Below, one piece after another: positions 1,361 through 10,300 of a DNA stretch of 20,519 bases. The stretch comes from a virus. Location: positions 1 to 20,519 of the IMG/VR virus record IMGVR_UViG_3300025096_000170; one strand, written 5' to 3'. Made by a program: the position numbers and the translations under genes. The notes under the pieces are model-generated. The model was not told the DNA's origin and did not search any database. It was given only the letters and a program-made list of their open reading frames with translations. The first letter of the stretch is position 1, and each line of letters starts with the position of its first letter.

Positions 1361-2982
1361 GTGTACGTGAGAGATACAATCATTTAAGCAGTAATCGTTC
1401 CCAGTTCCTGGACACCGCTGTTGAATGTTCTAAACTCACGTTACCTTATTTAATACAGACTGACGATAACGCAAGACCTTCACATAGAAGATTTATAACT
1501 CCATGGCAAGCAGTTGGAGCTAAGATTGTAGTAACGCTGGCAGCAAAATTAATGCTGGCGTTACTGCCTCCTCAAACTACCTTCTTCAAACTGCAAATGA
1601 GAGAAGATAAACTTGGTGAAGATATACCCCCTGAAATTAGAAGTGAACTAGACCTATCATTCTCCAAGATGGAACGAATGATTATGGATTATATAGCTGC
1701 TGCTAATGATAGGGTTATCATTCACCAAGCTCTCAAGCACTTAATTGTAGGTGGTAATGCACTTATATTTATGGACAAGGATGGGTTAAAAAACTTCCCG
1801 TTGAATAGGTATGTAGTTAATCGTGATGGTAACGGTAACGTTTTAGAAATTATAACAAAGGAACTTATAAGTCGTAAAGTTTTGGGGTTCGAGCTGCCTC
1901 CTGCTAAGAAACTTGTTGATCAATCAACAGGTGCGACAGGCTCAGATGAGGATGACGTAGAAGTATACACATGCGTTAAGACGGATGAGAAGAGTGGGCG
2001 TTGGGTCTGGTATCAAGAGGCATTCGGTGAAATGATCCCTGGTACTAGAAGTACAGCTCCCAAGAATGCAAGTCCATGGCTACCCCTCAGATTTAATGTG
2101 GTGGATGGAGAGGATTACGGAAGAGGACGAGTCGAAGAATTCTTAGGCGATCTACGGTCACTCGAAGGACTCTCTCAGGCACTCGTAGAAGGCTCTGCAG
2201 CCGCTGCGAAAGTCGTGTTCCTTGTATCCCCTAGTTCAACCACTAAACCAAAGACTATAGCCGAAGCTGGTAACGGTGCTATCGTACAGGGAAGACCTGA
2301 AGATGTTGCTGTAATCCAGGTAGGTAAGACAGCTGATTTTGCAACAGCTGCTAATTTAGCTCAGAGTATTGAGAAAAGATTAAGTGAAGCATTTCTTGTA
2401 ATGAATGTAAGGAATGCAGAAAGAGTGACCGCGGAAGAAGTCCGCCTCACACAAATGGAATTGGAACAACAACTCGGTGGCATATTCTCACTGTTAACTG
2501 TTGAATTTCTTATACCATATCTTAATAGAACTCTATTAGTTCTACAACGTAGTAATGAAATCCCTAAGATCCCTAAAGATTTAGTACGTCCGTCTATTGT
2601 GGCAGGTGTCAACGCTCTTGGCAGGGGTCAGGATAGAGAAAGTCTTACTGCATTTATCGGTACCATTGCACAGACACTTGGTCCTGAAGCATTGATGCAA
2701 TACATTAATCCTTCAGAAGCTATCAAACGTCTTGCTGCAGCACAAGGTATTGATGTATTGAATCTTGTTAAGACTGATCAACAGATTGCTGAAGAAACAC
2801 AGCAAGCACAACAAGCACAGCAGCAACAAGCTATGCTTGATCAAGCTGGGCAATTAGCTAATTCTCCGTTAATGGATCCACAAAAGAATCCAGGAATGAT
2901 GGCTAATGTGACAGGTGAAGCCAACGCAGATCCAGCACAACCACCAATGGAAGATGAAACCGAACCACCAATTGAACAGTAA
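1357..2982 (+). CDS. Head-tail connector (portal) protein, T7 gp8 family
   Basis: This 541-residue protein aligns by eye with T7 gp8 along its length. Matches include TPWQAVGAK...LAAKLMLALLPPQT (about residues 48-73), EEFLGDLRSLEGL (about 261-273), GRPEDVAVIQVGKTADF, and ERVTAEEVRLTQMELEQQLGG (about 356-376). It forms the dodecameric ring at one capsid vertex. This ring nucleates procapsid assembly, docks the terminase during packaging and then holds the tail. The length is close to T7 gp8 (536). The C-terminus is extended in low-complexity Gln and Ala (about residues 474-495) and then Pro, Met and acidic residues, as often seen in portals. It overlaps the upstream gene by ATGA and the scaffold gene by TAATG, making portal and scaffold a coupled pair. 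Confidence 0.97.
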   Translation: MSVRERYNHLSSNRSQFLDTAVECSKLTLPYLIQTDDNARPSHRRFITPWQAVGAKIVVTLAAKLMLALLPPQTTFFKLQMREDKLGEDIPPEIRSELDLSFSKMERMIMDYIAAANDRVIIHQALKHLIVGGNALIFMDKDGLKNFPLNRYVVNRDGNGNVLEIITKELISRKVLGFELPPAKKLVDQSTGATGSDEDDVEVYTCVKTDEKSGRWVWYQEAFGEMIPGTRSTAPKNASPWLPLRFNVVDGEDYGRGRVEEFLGDLRSLEGLSQALVEGSAAAAKVVFLVSPSSTTKPKTIAEAGNGAIVQGRPEDVAVIQVGKTADFATAANLAQSIEKRLSEAFLVMNVRNAERVTAEEVRLTQMELEQQLGGIFSLLTVEFLIPYLNRTLLVLQRSNEIPKIPKDLVRPSIVAGVNALGRGQDRESLTAFIGTIAQTLGPEALMQYINPSEAIKRLAAAQGIDVLNLVKTDQQIAEETQQAQQAQQQQAMLDQAGQLANSPLMDPQKNPGMMANVTGEANADPAQPPMEDETEPPIEQ

Positions 2983-3788
2983 TGGCAGAAACTTTAACAA
3001 TCAACAACGATGCACAACCGGAAGGTTTAACTGAAGAAGAGCAATCTAATTTAGAACTAGGTACTGAGATTCAAGATCAGCAAGAACAATTACTTGCTGG
3101 TAAATATGAGAATGCAAAGGAACTAGAGAAGGCATACGTTGAACTTCAAAAAAAATTAGGTGAAGATGGCAAAGACGAAGATAAAACTGAAGCTGAAAAA
3201 GAAGAAGTGTTGCCAGAAGAATCTGAAGAAAGTTCTGAAGAGTCTTCTACAGCAACTACCTTAATCAACGAAGCTTCTACTGAATATTATGCTAATGACG
3301 GTAAGTTATCTAAGGAAACTATTGCTAAGTTTTCTGAGATGAGTAGCCAAGATATAGTCAGTGCTTACCTGGAACTTCAGAAGAGTAACCCACAACCTCA
3401 ACAGCAAGAAGCTGAAGTCGTTGATTTATCTGCAGCTGATATTAATAGTATCCAAAACTCTGTAGGTGGTCAAACCCAATACCAAAACATGGTTGATTGG
3501 GCATCTACTAATATGGATAATAGTGAAGTAGAAGCCTTTGATAGCATAGTTAGTTCTGGTGATCCTGCTGCAGTTAAGTTAGCTGTAGCTGGTATCAAAG
3601 CAAAGTATGATGATGCAAATGGTATGGAAGGTAAACTACTAACAGGCAAAGCTCCTAAATCTTCACGTGACGTCTTTAGAAGTCAAGCTGAATTAGTTGC
3701 AGCTATGTCTAAACCTGAATATGATAGCGACCCTGCTTATAGGGCAGACGTTATTGAAAAACTCGATCGTTCTGACATCAATTTTTAA
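2982..3788 (+). CDS. Capsid assembly scaffolding protein, T7 gp9 family
   Basis: This is a 268-residue, very acidic protein rich in Glu, Gln and Ser, with predicted helices and no Cys, located between portal and capsid as in T7. Scaffolding proteins fill the procapsid, guide coat assembly and leave before or during packaging. The C-terminal 27 residues (MSKPEYDSDPAYRADVIEKL and the remainder) show the D/E-Y-x-x-DPAYR...V-x-x-KL pattern typical of T7-like scaffolds; in this class of protein the C-terminus binds the coat. The middle (about 60-90) is a Glu/Ser linker. The start overlaps the portal stop (TAATG) without a clear Shine-Dalgarno, implying translation by coupling from the portal gene. 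Confidence 0.92.
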   Translation: MAETLTINNDAQPEGLTEEEQSNLELGTEIQDQQEQLLAGKYENAKELEKAYVELQKKLGEDGKDEDKTEAEKEEVLPEESEESSEESSTATTLINEASTEYYANDGKLSKETIAKFSEMSSQDIVSAYLELQKSNPQPQQQEAEVVDLSAADINSIQNSVGGQTQYQNMVDWASTNMDNSEVEAFDSIVSSGDPAAVKLAVAGIKAKYDDANGMEGKLLTGKAPKSSRDVFRSQAELVAAMSKPEYDSDPAYRADVIEKLDRSDINF

Positions 3789-3987
3789 TTATGAGCGGCT
3801 CGGATAGTCGAATCCAGTAGAAGCAACAGGCAACCGCGTCCGTTCGGGGCAATCTTTGATTGCTTTGCATGAAACCACATCATGGAACGGGGGTGTGGTA
3901 CTATGGAGAAAGACGATGCAAAAAAAGCAAGTCACCCTAAAGTATCGCGGCGTGCCTTACACAAGAACACGTTAAACACTTTTTTAA
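3789..3987 (+). other. GC-richer gap between scaffold and accessory gene; contains a hairpin and a decayed small ORF
   Basis: These 199 bases contain no intact gene of normal size and look richer in G and C than the surrounding phage genes. A perfect 6-bp hairpin with a TTT loop (GCAATC/GATTGC, 3849-3863) is followed by TTT, a weak terminator or RNA-fold candidate. A reading frame with no stop runs from 3808 to 3975 and reads like protein (for example TTSWNGGVVLWRKT), but has no ATG until 3916. A nine-codon ORF at 3791-3820 (MSGSDSRIQ) sits just upstream in another frame, so a single frameshift could have split one gene of about 60 codons. I see no tRNA and no convincing promoter. Confidence 0.5.
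3916..3975 (+). pseudogene. Fragment of a YRG-motif (DUF4278-like) cyanobacterial small protein
   Basis: This is a 19-codon ORF whose sequence KKQVTLKYRGVPYTRTR resembles the TLxYRGVxYxx motif of the DUF4278 family, small proteins common in marine picocyanobacteria. That comparison is from memory, not from a search. Family members normally carry one or two such repeats in a longer protein; here the ORF stops straight after the motif. The same frame is open upstream to 3808 without a usual start, so this is best read as a truncated or frameshifted host-type gene, although a functional micropeptide is possible. Longer reading frames in this stretch are Arg-rich and less convincing. Confidence 0.35.
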
Positions 3988-4353
3988 ATGAAAACACTAG
4001 CACTCGCACTAGCCTCCACCGTCGTTGCTCTTCCGGCTTCCGCCGGAGTCTACGTGAACGTGGAGAACAATGCAGGTTATACAGGGTCTGATTATACAGG
4101 CGCTGTAACCGATTTCCATGTAGGTTACGAAAATGGAAATGAAACCTTTGATTGGTATGTACAAGGTGGTCCCGCTGTTGTAGCAACAGATGGCGCTGAC
4201 TCAGACACCAGAGTTTCTGGTAAAGTAGGAGCCAACATCGCAGCTACAGAGAAGCTTGGATTCTATGGTGAAGTCTCAGTACTAACTGCTGATGCAGATA
4301 CTGATGATGACAACACTTGGGGTACCAAAATAGGTGCTAAATTCAGCTTCTAA
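3988..4353 (+). CDS. Secreted small outer-membrane beta-barrel-like protein
   Basis: This 121-residue protein starts with a textbook Sec signal peptide: MK, a hydrophobic run LALALASTVVAL, then ASA with predicted cleavage after residue 19. The mature 102 residues show about six alternating amphipathic beta segments separated by Asp/Gly/Asn turns (for example VYVNVENN, DFHVGYENG, FDWYVQGG, KVGANIAA, FYGEVSVLT, GTKIGAKFSF). It ends in phenylalanine after an aromatic/hydrophobic alternation, the usual C-terminal signal for barrel insertion into the outer membrane. I know of no T7 counterpart; similar small secreted proteins occur in marine cyanobacteria and cyanophages as far as I recall. A role in envelope modification, exclusion of other phages or lysis is inference. 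Six strands is short for a barrel (eight is the usual minimum), so it may be periplasmic or oligomeric. The 5' third of the gene uses GC-rich codons unlike the rest. Confidence 0.75.
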   Translation: MKTLALALASTVVALPASAGVYVNVENNAGYTGSDYTGAVTDFHVGYENGNETFDWYVQGGPAVVATDGADSDTRVSGKVGANIAATEKLGFYGEVSVLTADADTDDDNTWGTKIGAKFSF

Positions 4354-4368
4354 TAAAGTATCTTGAAT

Positions 4369-4412
4369 CCCCATGGGTAGCACCTATGCTACTCCTGGGG
4401 TTCTTTATTTTT
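4369..4412 (+). terminator. Strong intrinsic terminator after the barrel-like gene
   Basis: A 14-bp stem with a single mismatch and one G-T pair (CCCCATGGGTAGCA, loop CCTA, TGCTACTCCTGGGG; 4369-4400) is followed by TTCTTTATTTTT. It begins 15 bases after the stop of the secreted protein gene. It would end transcripts arriving from the portal/scaffold side, or reduce their flow into the small genes and capsid gene downstream. Confidence 0.85.
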
Positions 4413-4766: not shown

Positions 4767-5312
4767 ATGCCCACCCAATATAAAGTAATTGACAAGGCGA
4801 TGGACATAGGTCCATTCACTACAATAAGAGATCTTTGTAGATTCAAACCTTTGAATGATGAACCTGTTGTAGAGTTTACTTTATCAGATTATGTGTCAGG
4901 TACTGAAAAAAATCCTGATGACTTAGAGTTGTGGTATGGTGTACATGCATTATACAACGCACATCCAGGTCGTAATTCTGTGCTATCTATGTATACACAG
5001 TATATAGCACCATCTATTGTTGATTATTTACAGAAAGTTGATTCATTAAAAACCTTACTTAGGATGAGAGTTAATTTCTTCCCATATACTAAGGAAGTAT
5101 ATGAACATGAACAACATACAGATCATGAATTCAGCTGCAAAGGTGCTTTATTATATTTAAATACTTGCAATGGGTTTACAAGATTAGAGGATGGGACTAA
5201 AATAGATAGTGTTGAAAATAGAATACTATTGTTTGATCCCCATACACTACATAATTCTACTACAACTTCGAATGCTAAAGGTAGGTTCAATATTAATTGT
5301 ACTTATTTTTAA
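4767..5312 (+). CDS. 2-oxoglutarate/Fe(II)-dependent oxygenase
   Basis: This 181-residue protein has a C-terminal half with the double-stranded beta-helix signature of the 2OG-Fe(II) dioxygenases. It shows iron ligands H117-x-D119 (EHEQHTDHEF), an LLYLN core strand, a distal histidine H162 (FDPHTLHNS) and R173 (GRFNINCTYF) placed to bind the 2-oxoglutarate carboxylate. Members hydroxylate or otherwise oxidise proteins, nucleic acid bases or small molecules; prolyl-4-hydroxylase-like members are frequent in cyanophages. The substrate here is unknown. It sits six bases after the small acidic ORF, directly upstream of the capsid leader. H159 is a less likely alternative distal ligand. There is no clear Shine-Dalgarno. 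Confidence 0.85.
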   Translation: MPTQYKVIDKAMDIGPFTTIRDLCRFKPLNDEPVVEFTLSDYVSGTEKNPDDLELWYGVHALYNAHPGRNSVLSMYTQYIAPSIVDYLQKVDSLKTLLRMRVNFFPYTKEVYEHEQHTDHEFSCKGALLYLNTCNGFTRLEDGTKIDSVENRILLFDPHTLHNSTTTSNAKGRFNINCTYF

Positions 5313-5487
5313 TAGGGAGAGAGGCACCTCAGAGTCGGACCTCTCTTTCATTGGCTTTTGCCCGTGGAGTCTATTCTAAGGGATAGAACGATCGGATACC
5401 TTGAGCCGTCTAGACGGTGGGAGAGACCACAAAAAACGCGCAAAAAATTTCAGCTGAGAACGTTAATATAAACTTTATTCCATAACA
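5313..5487 (+). promoter_or_regulatory. Structured non-coding leader of the capsid gene; likely promoter region
   Basis: This 175-base stretch has no gene and holds three inverted repeats: GGGAGAGAGG/CCTCTCTTTC (5315-5324 with 5340-5349, two G-T pairs), TCTATTC/GGATAGA with a TAAG loop (5370-5387), and a perfect 12-base palindrome CCGTCTAGACGG (5406-5417). The octamer GGGAGAGA occurs twice (5315-5322 and 5419-5426). The first copy is preceded by ATA, so it matches the start region of T7 RNA polymerase promoters (ATAGGGAGA), but the upstream recognition part does not match. An AT-rich segment (5463-5480, with TATAAA) leads to an ATG without a Shine-Dalgarno. T7 has its strongest promoter at this position, before gene 10. 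The promoter function is inferred. Confidence 0.5.
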
Positions 5488-6666
5488 ATGGCACAGCAGA
5501 ATGCTAATGCCAATTCCAATCCTAATTTTTTAGGTAGAATTGGTGATACTGGAACGTATAACGCATCCAATAACAGAGATTTATATCTCAAAATTTTCAG
5601 TGGGGAGTTATTCAAAGGCTTCCAACATGAATCAATAGCACGTGACCTTGTTACTAAGCGTACCCTTAAGAACGGCAAATCATTGCAGTTCATCTACACG
5701 GGTCGCACAAAAGCCGAGTACCACACACCTGGTCAGGCTATATTAGGTAACACGGACAACGCGCCTCCAGTAGCAGAGAAGACCGTTACGGTTGACGATC
5801 TACTTATCAGTTCAGCTTTCGTATATGAATTAGATGAGACCCTGGCTCACTATGAGTTAAGGGGAGAGATCTCTCGTAAGATCGGTTATGCTCTAGCTCA
5901 AACATATGATAGAAAGATTTTCCGTTCTATCACTAGAGGTGCTCGTGCAGCTAGCCCAATTAGTAAGTCTAGCTTCGTAGAACCAGGTGGGTCACAGATC
6001 CGCGTTGGTACAACTGCGCAGGCTAACAATGCTTACGACTCAGATAAGCTCGTGGACGCATTCTATGATGCCGCGGCTGCTTTAGATGAGAAGGGTATTT
6101 CGGGTGAAGGGCGTGTAGCCGTATTGAACCCAAGACAATATTACACTTTGATACAAAACGTATCAGGTAATGGTCTAATCAACCGTGACGTACAAGGTAC
6201 AGCCTTGCAGTCTGGTAAAGGTATTATTGAAATTGCAGGTATCACTATCTACAAATCAATGAACATACCGTTCTTCGGAAACTTTGGTACTAAGCTCGGA
6301 GGCACTGCAGGTGCTGAAGATCCTGGTGAAACCTCACCTGGTAACACTGGTACCTTCGTTGGCGAAGATATGCTCGACGACGAAGCAGTTGCAACTACTG
6401 CATATGGTTCACGTAATGACTACGGTACTGATGAAAGATTCGCTCACTCTTGCGGATTGATCTTCCAGCGTGAAGGCGCAGCTGTAGTTGAAGCAATTGG
6501 TCCTCAAGTTCAAGTAACTTCAGGTGATGTATCCGTGATTTACCAGGGAGACGTCATTCTAGGACGCTTGGCAATGGGCAGTGACTATCTAAATCCTGCT
6601 GCTTGTGTTGAACTCATAGCTGGTGCAGCTCCTGCAAACAGTACCGAGAAAACCGACGGCTGGTAG
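5488..6666 (+). CDS. Major capsid protein, T7 gp10 family
   Basis: This 392-residue HK97-fold coat protein aligns by eye with T7 gp10A. Matches include LYLKIFSGELFKGF (T7 LFLKVFGGEVLTAF), GKSLQFIYTGRTKAEYHTPGQ (T7 GKSAQFPVLGRTQAAYLAPGE), TVDDLLISSAFVYELDETLAHYELRGEIS, then a long helical and beta region with VAVLNPRQYYTLIQN. It forms the icosahedral shell. It is longer than T7 gp10A (345); the loop at about residues 270-310 (GGTAGAEDPGETSPGNTGTF) is Gly/Glu-rich and may be surface exposed. The start has no Shine-Dalgarno (CCATAACA before ATG), as common in cyanobacteria. A strong terminator follows, so the gene stands as its own transcription block. I see no gp10B-type frameshift extension. 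Confidence 0.97.
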   Translation: MAQQNANANSNPNFLGRIGDTGTYNASNNRDLYLKIFSGELFKGFQHESIARDLVTKRTLKNGKSLQFIYTGRTKAEYHTPGQAILGNTDNAPPVAEKTVTVDDLLISSAFVYELDETLAHYELRGEISRKIGYALAQTYDRKIFRSITRGARAASPISKSSFVEPGGSQIRVGTTAQANNAYDSDKLVDAFYDAAAALDEKGISGEGRVAVLNPRQYYTLIQNVSGNGLINRDVQGTALQSGKGIIEIAGITIYKSMNIPFFGNFGTKLGGTAGAEDPGETSPGNTGTFVGEDMLDDEAVATTAYGSRNDYGTDERFAHSCGLIFQREGAAVVEAIGPQVQVTSGDVSVIYQGDVILGRLAMGSDYLNPAACVELIAGAAPANSTEKTDGW

Positions 6667-7346: not shown

Positions 7347-10300
7347 ATGGCAACAATTACACAAACAATACCTACATATACTGGCGGGATTTCTCAACAG
7401 CCTGATGAGCTTAAAGTACCAGGTCAGTTAAATGAAGCAAAAAATGTTTTACCAGATGTCACCCACGGTTTAGTTAAAAGACCAGGCGCTAAATTAATTA
7501 AGTCTTTAAGTGACGGTACTAATAATTCTTATGCAACAGGTCAATGGTTTCATTACTATAGAGATGAGAACGAACAATATATAGGACAAATCATACGTAG
7601 AACTGGACATGCTGATGATGGTAAGGTTCGTATGTGGTCTTGCTTAGATGGGTCTGAAAAAACTGTTGCTGTAGGTTCATCTGCTACTAAACCAGGTGGT
7701 GGTTCGATCACACCTGTTGAATATTTAAAACACACTGCTGATCATGATATCCAAACACTAACATTAAACGATCATACATATATGTGTAATCGTAATGTTA
7801 CAGTGGAGATGGATAATGCGACAAGTAATGTTAATGCTTGGCAAGAAACTGCTAGACCACCTGAAGCATTTATAGAATTAAAAAATGTAGCATACTCTAA
7901 ACAGTATGCTCTTAATTTATATGCAGGTACTAGTGAACGTAATGCTTATTGTGCAACTAGAGTTTCGTGTGATCGAGTTCTAGACACTAGTAATACGTGT
8001 CAACACCAAGCTATTGTACAAAATGATACATGGTACCCACCAGAAGGAATTGAACCTGGTACAATGGATGGTACGACACGTACTGGTACTGGTAATAATG
8101 AAGGATGGACTAAATCATGTGGAAGTGGTGGTGTTTATAATTATAAAGGTGACTTAGTACTGGATCAACATTTGTTATGTGTTGGTGTTGATACATTTCA
8201 AGTTACTCCAGGAAGAGCGTATGAAAAAAGATCTAATTCTAATGGCGTAGAAGATTTTTATTATTACTACAGAGATAATCAAAAACGAGCCGATAATGAA
8301 GTTCATAGATTATACTTTAATGAAAACCAGACATGGTTAACTGGTCATAAATATAAATTAACTAATACAGCTACTAGTGTGTCTGTTGAATGGACTGCAG
8401 GTAGTGGTACAGGTCTCGGTGAACAAGCTGAAAAAATTTTCGAGGGCTGGGAAGCTCATAGTAATTGGGGAACCTTAACTACTGATTATGACATACTTCG
8501 GAGAGGGTATACTAACAATAGTCCTTGGAGTGCAGCTGATAGTAGAACTGTTCAAAAGACTGGATTAGATCTTGTTTTCAGATCTAAAACAAACTCTAAT
8601 GTATATGGTAGTGGTCGTTGGAAAGTTGAAGTACTAAATGGTAGTACTGTAGTCAGAACTTTTACTAGTACTATTTGGGCAAACCGTACTATTGAATCTA
8701 ATACGAATCCTATACCTAAACACCTTGCTGTTAAAATAGAAACTACAGGACAAACAACTGTTGTTGAAACTTCTAGTTACTCCGGTAAATATACAACGCA
8801 AAGTAATTTATTATTTGGAGGTAACGGATGGAAAGTAGGTGATTATTTCTACGTATGGATGACGGCTGGTAAATATAAAATCACTGTTGAAGATGAAAGT
8901 ATATCAAAAGTTAAAGCTGATTTAGGTTTAATACGACCGAAACCTACGCCTTTTACAGGTGAAACTGTAACTACTCCTGATAGTATTTTAGGTGATATAA
9001 GGCAAGCTATTGTAGATGCTACAACCGAAACAGGTGGGGCAATAGGTTGGGTAGACTCACACATAACACAAATTGGTAATGGTCTTTATATTACACGACC
9101 ATTAACTGGTGGTAGTTTCAATGGTACTTTTAACGTTAGCACACCTAACAGTGAATTACTAAATGTCTTTACAGATAAAGTTGGTGATGTAGCAGACTTA
9201 CCGAAAGAATGTAAACATGGTTATGTATTAAAAGTTTCCAATAGTGACTCAGCTACTGAAGACGATTACTATGTAAAATTCTTTGGTCATAATGATAGAG
9301 ACGGTCCTGGTGTATGGGAAGAGTGTGTTAAACCTGGTGCTGCGATTCGCTATGCTAAAGGTACTATGCCTGTTGATTTAATTCGAACAGCAGATGGTAA
9401 CTTTAGATTAACATTTTTAGATGGTACAGATTATACGATTAGTAGTGTAACTTATACAACGGAAGCTTGGGAGCCTGCTTTAGTAGGTGATACAGATCCA
9501 GAAGGTGAAGCTACGAACCCTTGGGCAAGCTTTGTTGGTAAAAAAATTACACAAATGCTATTCTTTAGAAATAGGTTGTGTTTGTTTGCTGACGAAAACG
9601 TTATAATGTCTCAGCCTGGAGACTTCTTTAATTTCTGGGGTAAATCTGCAATAGCAGTTTCGCCTGTTGATGTGATAGATATATCAGCGAGCTCAGAATA
9701 CCCAGCAATTATCTACGATGGTATACAGGTTGGTAGTGGTCTTGTTCTATTTACTAAAAATCAACAATTCTTATTAACAACAGATAGTGATGTACTAAGT
9801 TCACAGACTGCTAAGATTAATGCATTAAGTACTTACAACTTTAACAATAAAACTAGTCCTATTAATTTAGGTACTTCACTTGGATTCTTAGATAATGCTG
9901 GTAAATTTTCACGTTTCTTAGAAATGACTACGGTCCAAAGAGACGGTGATCCACAAGTCTTAGATCAAAGCAAAGTTGTTGGTGATTTATTTGCTAAAGA
10001 TTTAAGAGTCATATCTAATTCCAGGGAAAATTCAGTTGTATTCTTTAGTAAAGATTTAGATACAACTTTATATGGATATCGATACCATAACTTAGTAGAT
10101 AAACGCTTACAGCAAGCATGGTTCACTTGGGAATTTGATAGTAAAATACGATATCATTGTGTCTTAGATGACTCATTATATATGGTATTACAGACTAAAG
10201 ATTCTCCACAAACTGATATGTTAGTGAGAATAGATCTAAAGTTAACTGATACCTCTGATACTGTTAGTGATTTAAACGAAACGGTTGGACCTACTTTAAC

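Follow-up and report, generated by a model that had tools for sequence, protein, structure and literature searches.

A Predicted Outer-Membrane Protein Gene behind a Glutamine-II Riboswitch and a Micropeptide in T7-like Cyanophages

In the late block of a T7-like cyanophage, the gene for a barrel-like protein of the family Phage_OMP (OMP in the following) lies behind a glutamine-II riboswitch and a micropeptide, and on balance we favor the reading that it represents the second, translationally coupled cistron of a short glutamine-sensing operon. The window, that is, the whole stretch of DNA that was analysed, comprises 20,519 nucleotides (IMG/VR record IMGVR_UViG_3300025096_000170, positions 1 to 20,519); its features are listed in Table 1. 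With a secreted outer-membrane protein placed behind a glutamine sensor, the nitrogen state of the infected cell probably determines how this virus remodels the cell surface. The riboswitch, the micropeptide, and the terminator, all overlooked by an earlier note on this DNA, are the strongest clue to the control of the OMP gene. The protein family and the riboswitch class are already known; their arrangement and its prevalence were not found described. The literature search yielded no description of the order riboswitch-peptide-OMP, an earlier mention in Klahn 2018 or in Ames & Breaker 2011 being possible, no paper that joins DUF4278 with phage, and none that mentions PF24653.

Table 1. Features of the window around the OMP gene.
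Feature	Position	Strand	Basis
Capsid assembly (scaffold) protein, left border	2982..3788	+	PF05396 / phrog_1052
Glutamine-II (type 2 glutamine, 'downstream peptide') riboswitch aptamer, RF01704	3838..3899	+	Rfam 40.9 bits, cut-off 33
Alternative hairpin	3897..3951	+	GGTACT(ATGGAG) 3897-3908 with AAGTATC(GCGGC) 3940-3951
GGAG Shine-Dalgarno (SD) sequence of the micropeptide	3905..3908	+	Sequence
19-aa micropeptide MQKKQVTLKYRGVPYTRTR; DUF4278-like, with one YRG repeat	3916..3975	+	Residue conservation, weak DUF4278 match
Six-strand barrel-like protein of Phage_OMP (PF24653) with signal peptide (residues 1-19)	3988..4353	+	Pfam score, AlphaFold2 model, structural neighbors
Intrinsic-terminator-like hairpin and U-rich tail, 3′ of the OMP gene	4365..4412	+	-22.9 kcal/mol hairpin, then TTTATTTTT
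Structured, conserved leader RNA before the gene for the major capsid protein, outside the OMP cistron	5351..5430	+	Covarying helices, 98 distinct relatives
Major capsid protein, right border	5488..6666	+	PF21703 / phrog_267

The 121-aa Protein Very Likely Belongs to an Outer-Membrane Family

The earlier note, made from the DNA letters, had proposed a secreted, barrel-like outer-membrane protein with a signal peptide cleaved after ASA (residue 19), alternating beta segments, and a C-terminal Phe, encoded between the scaffold and capsid genes, and had named profile search and structure prediction as checks. In the profile search, the 121-aa product matched PF24653 with 146.6 bits at a cut-off of 27 (residues 2-121, profile positions 3-122 of 122; Pfam) and likewise PHROG 417. 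Homologs of PF24653 are present in 463 phage records, which by name are marine Synechococcus or Prochlorococcus phages save for a few labelled 'marine' or 'uncultured', and the match together with these homologs is far above chance. The other members of this cyanophage barrel family (gp222, T4-GC 241, or 'DUF680') share the signal peptide, the six strands, and the terminal Phe; in contrast to them, the gene in the window stands behind a glutamine riboswitch and a micropeptide.

By inspection, the N-terminus forms a Sec-type signal peptide composed of K2, the hydrophobic stretch LALALASTVVAL, and the site PASA↓G (AxA↓G), as the note had claimed, and the AxA residues are conserved: at -3/-1, 38 of the 39 aligned relatives that cover these positions read A/A and the remaining one S/A. 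Hydrophobic and polar residues alternate in every strand of the mature protein, and an alignment of 44 relatives has Phe as the C-terminal residue throughout. The AlphaFold2 model, based on a 37-sequence alignment, contains exactly six strands (residues 20-32, 35-50, 54-67, 73-85, 90-99, and 110-119) and zero helix with a pLDDT of ~90 across the mature region, in agreement with the strand number given by the note, which is smaller than that of eight-strand barrels. The best structural matches are the outer-membrane barrels OprF (Z 10.0), OmpA (9.8), NspA (9.5), and OmpW (9.4), the Foldseek E-values being weak (best 0.035), and the sequence search of solved structures revealed no relative better than E 0.44. 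The protein shares the all-beta meander and one polar face with OmpA, OprF, and NspA at a Z of ~10, but in contrast to these eight-strand barrels it is modelled with six strands, and it scores 16.6 bits with the eight-strand barrel profile OMP_b-brl (PF13505), below the cut-off of 28.7 bits. Taken together, the family match and the nearest structures make it very likely that the 121-aa protein belongs to an outer-membrane family. To our knowledge, the closed monomeric outer-membrane barrels all have more than six strands, and the six-strand unit poses the structural question of whether such barrels can assemble from two separate half-barrels.

The note had also stated that the morphogenesis block of T7 lacks a counterpart. 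The gene does reside in a phage morphogenesis block, but its family is an established one that occurs widely in cyanophages. T7-like cyanophages also carry hli and psbA in the gap between the scaffold and capsid genes. In the window, an ORF of 181 aa (4767-5312) matches phrog_274, labelled 'DNA endonuclease V', and its residues (HTDHE...H...R) resemble a 2OG-Fe(II) oxygenase. Genes for 2OG-Fe(II) oxygenases adjoin OMP in Syn1, S-RIM44, and P-SSM2 as well; among the P-SSM2 proteins, the OMP neighbor PSSM2_245 does not match the ORF of the window, and PSSM2_235 does. A simple promoter and terminator scan gave nothing useful and missed the terminator-like hairpin.

A Glutamine-II Riboswitch before the Micropeptide and a Predicted Alternative Hairpin

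The aptamer comprises a pseudoknot (3841-3845/3885-3889) and the helix P2 (3874-3881/3892-3899). Among 20 relatives, the RF01704 core columns with the pseudoknot core are invariant, and P2 covaries: 99.6% of the cells are paired, five of the eight pairs are changed on both sides, and the score was reached in 0 of 500 shuffles. Prochlorococcus RF01704 loci with a downstream peptide have the invariant pseudoknot core, P2, and a short YRG peptide in common with the window. Unlike these host loci, the window belongs to a phage and has a barrel gene after the peptide.

The alternative hairpin abuts the SD sequence, and the last bases of P2 are common to both structures. The partner of the P2 3′-arm and the pre-SD bases is formed by the K-Y-R codons of the peptide (AAG TAT CGC). 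Over 61 unique sequences, 89% of the register is paired; sliding lowers the value to 30-46% and shuffling of the partners to 81%, the latter being high because the codons are conserved. The duplex energy amounts to -13.9 kcal/mol within a locus versus -10.3 kcal/mol between loci, and the hairpin is found in the predicted MFE structure of the window. Moreover, two covarying classes exist, in which GGTACT is combined with AAGTATC and GGTATAT with GTATATC, respectively. The codon use of the micropeptide, with AAG for Lys in 59/60, TAT for the first Tyr in 86/90, and TAC for the second Tyr in 67/90 cases, fits the predicted pairing.

Because P2 and the alternative hairpin have bases in common, the SD sequence should be freed upon binding of glutamine, which agrees with the published behavior of type 2 glutamine riboswitches, where expression is activated upon glutamine binding (PMC6316151). 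For the 'Downstream-peptide' motif, a possible regulatory role of the conserved peptide sequence was already hinted at in 2010 (PMC2864571). With good confidence, we place the OMP gene under riboswitch control, its response to glutamine being a prediction.

The OMP Gene Is Likely Coupled to the Micropeptide

The YRG motif and the next Tyr of the micropeptide are invariant in 90 unique coding sequences and third positions vary in several codons, indicating that the micropeptide is read as protein. Its score with DUF4278 (PF14105) is 16.1 bits over 12 residues at a cut-off of 25.3 bits. At three Prochlorococcus-group loci, the proteins encoded after the glutamine-II riboswitch comprise 33 or 55 aa with two or three YRG repeats, and the two that were scanned both score above the DUF4278 cut-off; the peptides of the window's group, in contrast, have one repeat and a length of 16-21 aa.

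The OMP gene starts 12 nt after the end of the micropeptide in the window and 3-17 nt after it across related loci. An SD-like tetramer precedes the micropeptide in 54 of the 55 peptide-OMP loci and the OMP gene in none of the 55. This lack of an SD sequence at a short distance behind the peptide, together with the terminator, suggests that OMP is built for expression with the peptide. Judged by this gene architecture, OMP is likely translated by ribosomes arriving from the micropeptide, i.e., by translational coupling. As riboswitch-free OMP loci exist, the coupling is not obligatory; in the isolates S-SBP1 and KBS-P-1A, OMP is located before psbA, outside riboswitch control.

Riboswitch and Peptide Are General in T7-like Cyanophages

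All 45 T7-like OMP loci that extend 200 nt or more upstream show the order riboswitch-peptide-OMP, versus none of the 15 loci devoid of T7 genes. A riboswitch-anchored sample of at least 120 IMG/VR stretches was collected by a DNA pattern that favors the riboswitch subtype of the window. At the 122 pattern sites listed, two genome contigs included, the next recognized gene was the capsid gene in at least 77 and OMP in at least 29 cases; at least 15 other sites had incomplete sequence, and one was without assignment. When the sample was anchored at the capsid gene, 35 of the 39 loci with enough upstream sequence carried the riboswitch, all 35 with the peptide. OMP is present in 12 of these 39 loci, with the riboswitch in 10 and without it in 2, and 25 of the 35 riboswitch-bearing loci are devoid of OMP. 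These counts indicate that riboswitch and peptide are general in T7-like cyanophages, with OMP as an optional second cistron. Both occur between the scaffold and capsid genes in ~90% of T7-like cyanophages, and a glutamine sensor stands beside the capsid gene in about nine in ten of the contigs sampled.

RF01704 was detected above the cut-off in P-SSP7, P-SSP2, KBS-P-1A, P-GSP1, S-CBP1, S-CBP4, NATL1A-7, NATL2A-133, P-SSP10, and P-SCSP-R27W, and the window's order of riboswitch, peptide, and OMP recurs in the isolates NATL2A-133, P-SSP10, P-SCSP-R27W, and NATL1A-7. In S-SBP1, 7B11-B, and the myoviruses S-T4, P-TIM68, and S-SM2, the match was below the cut-off or absent. Riboswitch control of OMP in myoviruses was considered and rejected, as these three myoviruses have no match above the cut-off.

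In P-SSP7, the riboswitch is located at 20522-20575 (2809-2862 of locus L208), and an unannotated 17-aa peptide, MKVTFVYRGVAYTRVIG, accompanies it between psbA and gene 10; no barrel gene lies behind. As the sensor is present in this laboratory model, it is directly testable.

The Neighbors of OMP Relatives Point to Nutrient Uptake

The genes next to OMP relatives, likewise overlooked by the earlier note, point to a role in nutrient uptake. In P-SSM2, both PSSM2_246 and PSSM2_247 belong to Phage_OMP, and 10 nt separate the end of PSSM2_247 from pstS. In front of PSSM2_247, the sequence CTTAACCTTCTCTTAGTTT resembles a Pho box of the cyanobacterial consensus, and g247 of P-SSM2 is itself reportedly induced in P-starved hosts. 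The order OMP-OMP-pstS is common to P-SSM2, S-SM2, and S-B43; pstS adjoins OMP in only 3 of ~10 sampled myoviruses, the rest having other neighbors. PMC10976474, citing Zeng and Chisholm 2012, reports that pstS of P-SSM2 is under host PhoBR control. The PhoBR-controlled pstS region of P-SSM2 (PSSM2_246-248) resembles the window in that Phage_OMP genes accompany a nutrient cue, together with an uptake gene; there, in contrast, control is transcriptional and by phosphate, without a riboswitch. S-PM2d169, which shows the largest fold change under P-depletion (PMC10976474), was tested for membership in Phage_OMP and does not belong to it. Some cyanophages encode two different Phage_OMP proteins in tandem (L076 2938-3931, L199, L238, and L243, the latter representing P-SSM2), and such pairs could form a heterodimeric barrel.

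PF24653 was found above the cut-off in 16 of 101 Cyanobiaceae genomes, in the single-cell genome (SAG) AG-363-M21 only via its phage contig; the other Cyanobiaceae matches are larger, distant proteins with 30-50 bits. A host origin of the 121-aa protein by close homology was rejected, the Cyanobiaceae relatives being only these distant ones. The scan of genome contigs gave 11 matches to the barrel protein, including two contigs (L197, L198) that carry T7-like phage genes. One Cyanobiaceae relative directly follows the gene for ZnuA (L230 862-1830). Outer-membrane-like Cyanobiaceae proteins of 322-340 aa combine a His/Asp-rich loop with the Phage_OMP domain (L225-L233) and are possibly a zinc-uptake outer-membrane channel of marine picocyanobacteria.

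A host protein of 265 aa (L232) contains two tandem Phage_OMP units. This protein and the ZnuA-adjacent Cyanobiaceae proteins of 322-334 aa have the same domain, predicted export, and terminal Phe as the phage protein. However, the host proteins consist of two tandem units, or of one unit with a diverged half and the His/Asp-rich loop, whereas the phage proteins at the examined loci always comprise one, and no two-unit relative was found in the viral contigs searched. The tandem units of the host protein, the one source of this suggestion, point to a natural barrel that may have 12 strands from two units, of which the six-strand phage protein would supply one half.

The pstS neighbors in cyanomyoviruses and ZnuA in the host make a nutrient channel the likeliest function. 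We infer that the Phage_OMP family belongs with nutrient uptake, and a nutrient channel is the most likely single reading of OMP, although its probability falls somewhat short of one half. Against a nutrient reading with a nitrogen cue, the host neighbor ZnuA is a metal-uptake protein and does not serve nitrogen.

Proposed Mechanism and Alternative Readings

In the mechanism that we favor, the K-Y-R codons of the nascent RNA would pair with the aptamer's 3′-arm and with the pre-SD bases, thereby holding off translation; the helix covaries, and its effect on translation is our interpretation. At high glutamine levels, formation of the glutamine-II pseudoknot would free the SD sequence, resulting in translation of the 19-aa DUF4278-like peptide, a step transferred to this locus from the activation published for the riboswitch class. 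Ribosomes ending on the peptide would then restart 12 nt downstream on the SD-less OMP gene, as the observed architecture suggests. Export of OMP by Sec would be followed by its insertion into the outer membrane in units of six strands, two of which may make up a 12-strand barrel, export and assembly being assumed along with the predicted fold. Finally, as the family neighbors pstS and ZnuA suggest, OMP would most likely raise the permeability of the outer membrane to a nutrient that becomes limiting for phage production when nitrogen is no longer scarce. Against a glutamine-gated OMP stand the rarity of the pstS adjacency in the myoviruses sampled, the non-obligatory coupling, and the unusually small number of six strands. 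A broader model, which we put forward as speculative and rather doubtful, holds that cyanophages employ one half-barrel module as a nutrient-gated pore (two times six strands) and wire it to a lineage-specific nutrient signal, namely PhoB/pstS in myoviruses and, in T7-like podoviruses, a glutamine riboswitch with an off-state built from the codons of the 19-aa peptide.

A serious rival, to which we assign a substantial chance that nevertheless stays below one half, is that the riboswitch serves the micropeptide, which would mimic a host DUF4278 nitrogen regulator, acting for instance on glutamine synthetase (GS), with OMP as a passenger behind it. The many loci with riboswitch and peptide in the absence of OMP (25 of 35 when anchored at the capsid gene, and at least 77 sites where the capsid gene is the next one recognized) argue for this reading, as do the invariant residues YRG..Y, the DUF4278 proteins driven by host riboswitches, and the link of DUF4278 to the GS inactivating factor IF17 (PMC6316151). 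However, OMP follows the peptide at 3-17 nt without an SD sequence in 55 of 55 loci, a terminator closes the unit in the window, and RNA pairing explains part of the codon conservation of the peptide. A micropeptide as main effector would also be compatible with a functional OMP.

As a further alternative, OMP could modify the cell surface such that superinfection, or the attachment of phages to debris, is blocked; small proteins located in the outer membrane or at the surface serve superinfection exclusion in other phages, and the late position of the gene would fit. We consider this unlikely, as nutrient-uptake genes adjoin OMP relatives, glutamine control has no evident logic for exclusion, and Phage_OMP occurs in podoviruses and myoviruses alike. 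The earlier note had raised superinfection blocking as well as help in lysis, and specific evidence was found for neither. A weakening of the outer membrane in aid of lysis, to which predicted export and the late block would be suited, appears improbable: the protein has no lipobox, no spanin-like organisation, and a single conserved barrel domain, and lysis genes do not adjoin it. Least probable is a virion component with an incidental signal-like N-terminus, since the placement among head genes is opposed by the conserved AxA site, the amphipathic strands, and the optional nature of OMP, which 12 of the 39 capsid-anchored loci carry.

A Second Structured RNA Precedes the Capsid Gene

In the RNA leader upstream of the capsid gene, the long-range stem GG[CTA]N/N[AGT]CC is 96.2% paired with 22 cells changed on both sides, a score that 0 of 500 shuffles reached. 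The short stems of a UACG-type capped hairpin are perfectly paired in 93 of the 98 distinct sequences, with exchanges among base-pair types, and the last hairpin changes in concert (TGG/CCA, TAGG/CCTA, TGTG/CACA, and ACTG/CAGT). The RNA is located at most 200 nt from the capsid gene in 63 of the 70 loci with enough sequence, and with a strict pattern, 98 distinct sequences were obtained. Besides the window, this highly conserved RNA occurs in P-SSP7 (L208), L209, L210, L215, and ~100 IMG/VR contigs. The search of Rfam 15 matched no family. RNAalifold favored a local hairpin on this alignment because MAFFT misaligned the variable stem; the helices were counted by a hand-anchored script, one of them with a pair counter. 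The RNA is a candidate new element that may control processing or translation of the capsid mRNA.

On the T7-like phage contig of the Prochlorococcus SAG AG-363-M21 (L058, the contig of L197), a group I intron (7730-7956; Rfam 94.7 bits) is located approximately where the capsid-gene match splits in two, and the capsid gene may be interrupted by this intron. In addition, tRNA genes or sequences resembling tRNA 3′-halves occur near the leader RNA in the scaffold-capsid interval of L021, L043, L044, L061, L107, L195, and L214.
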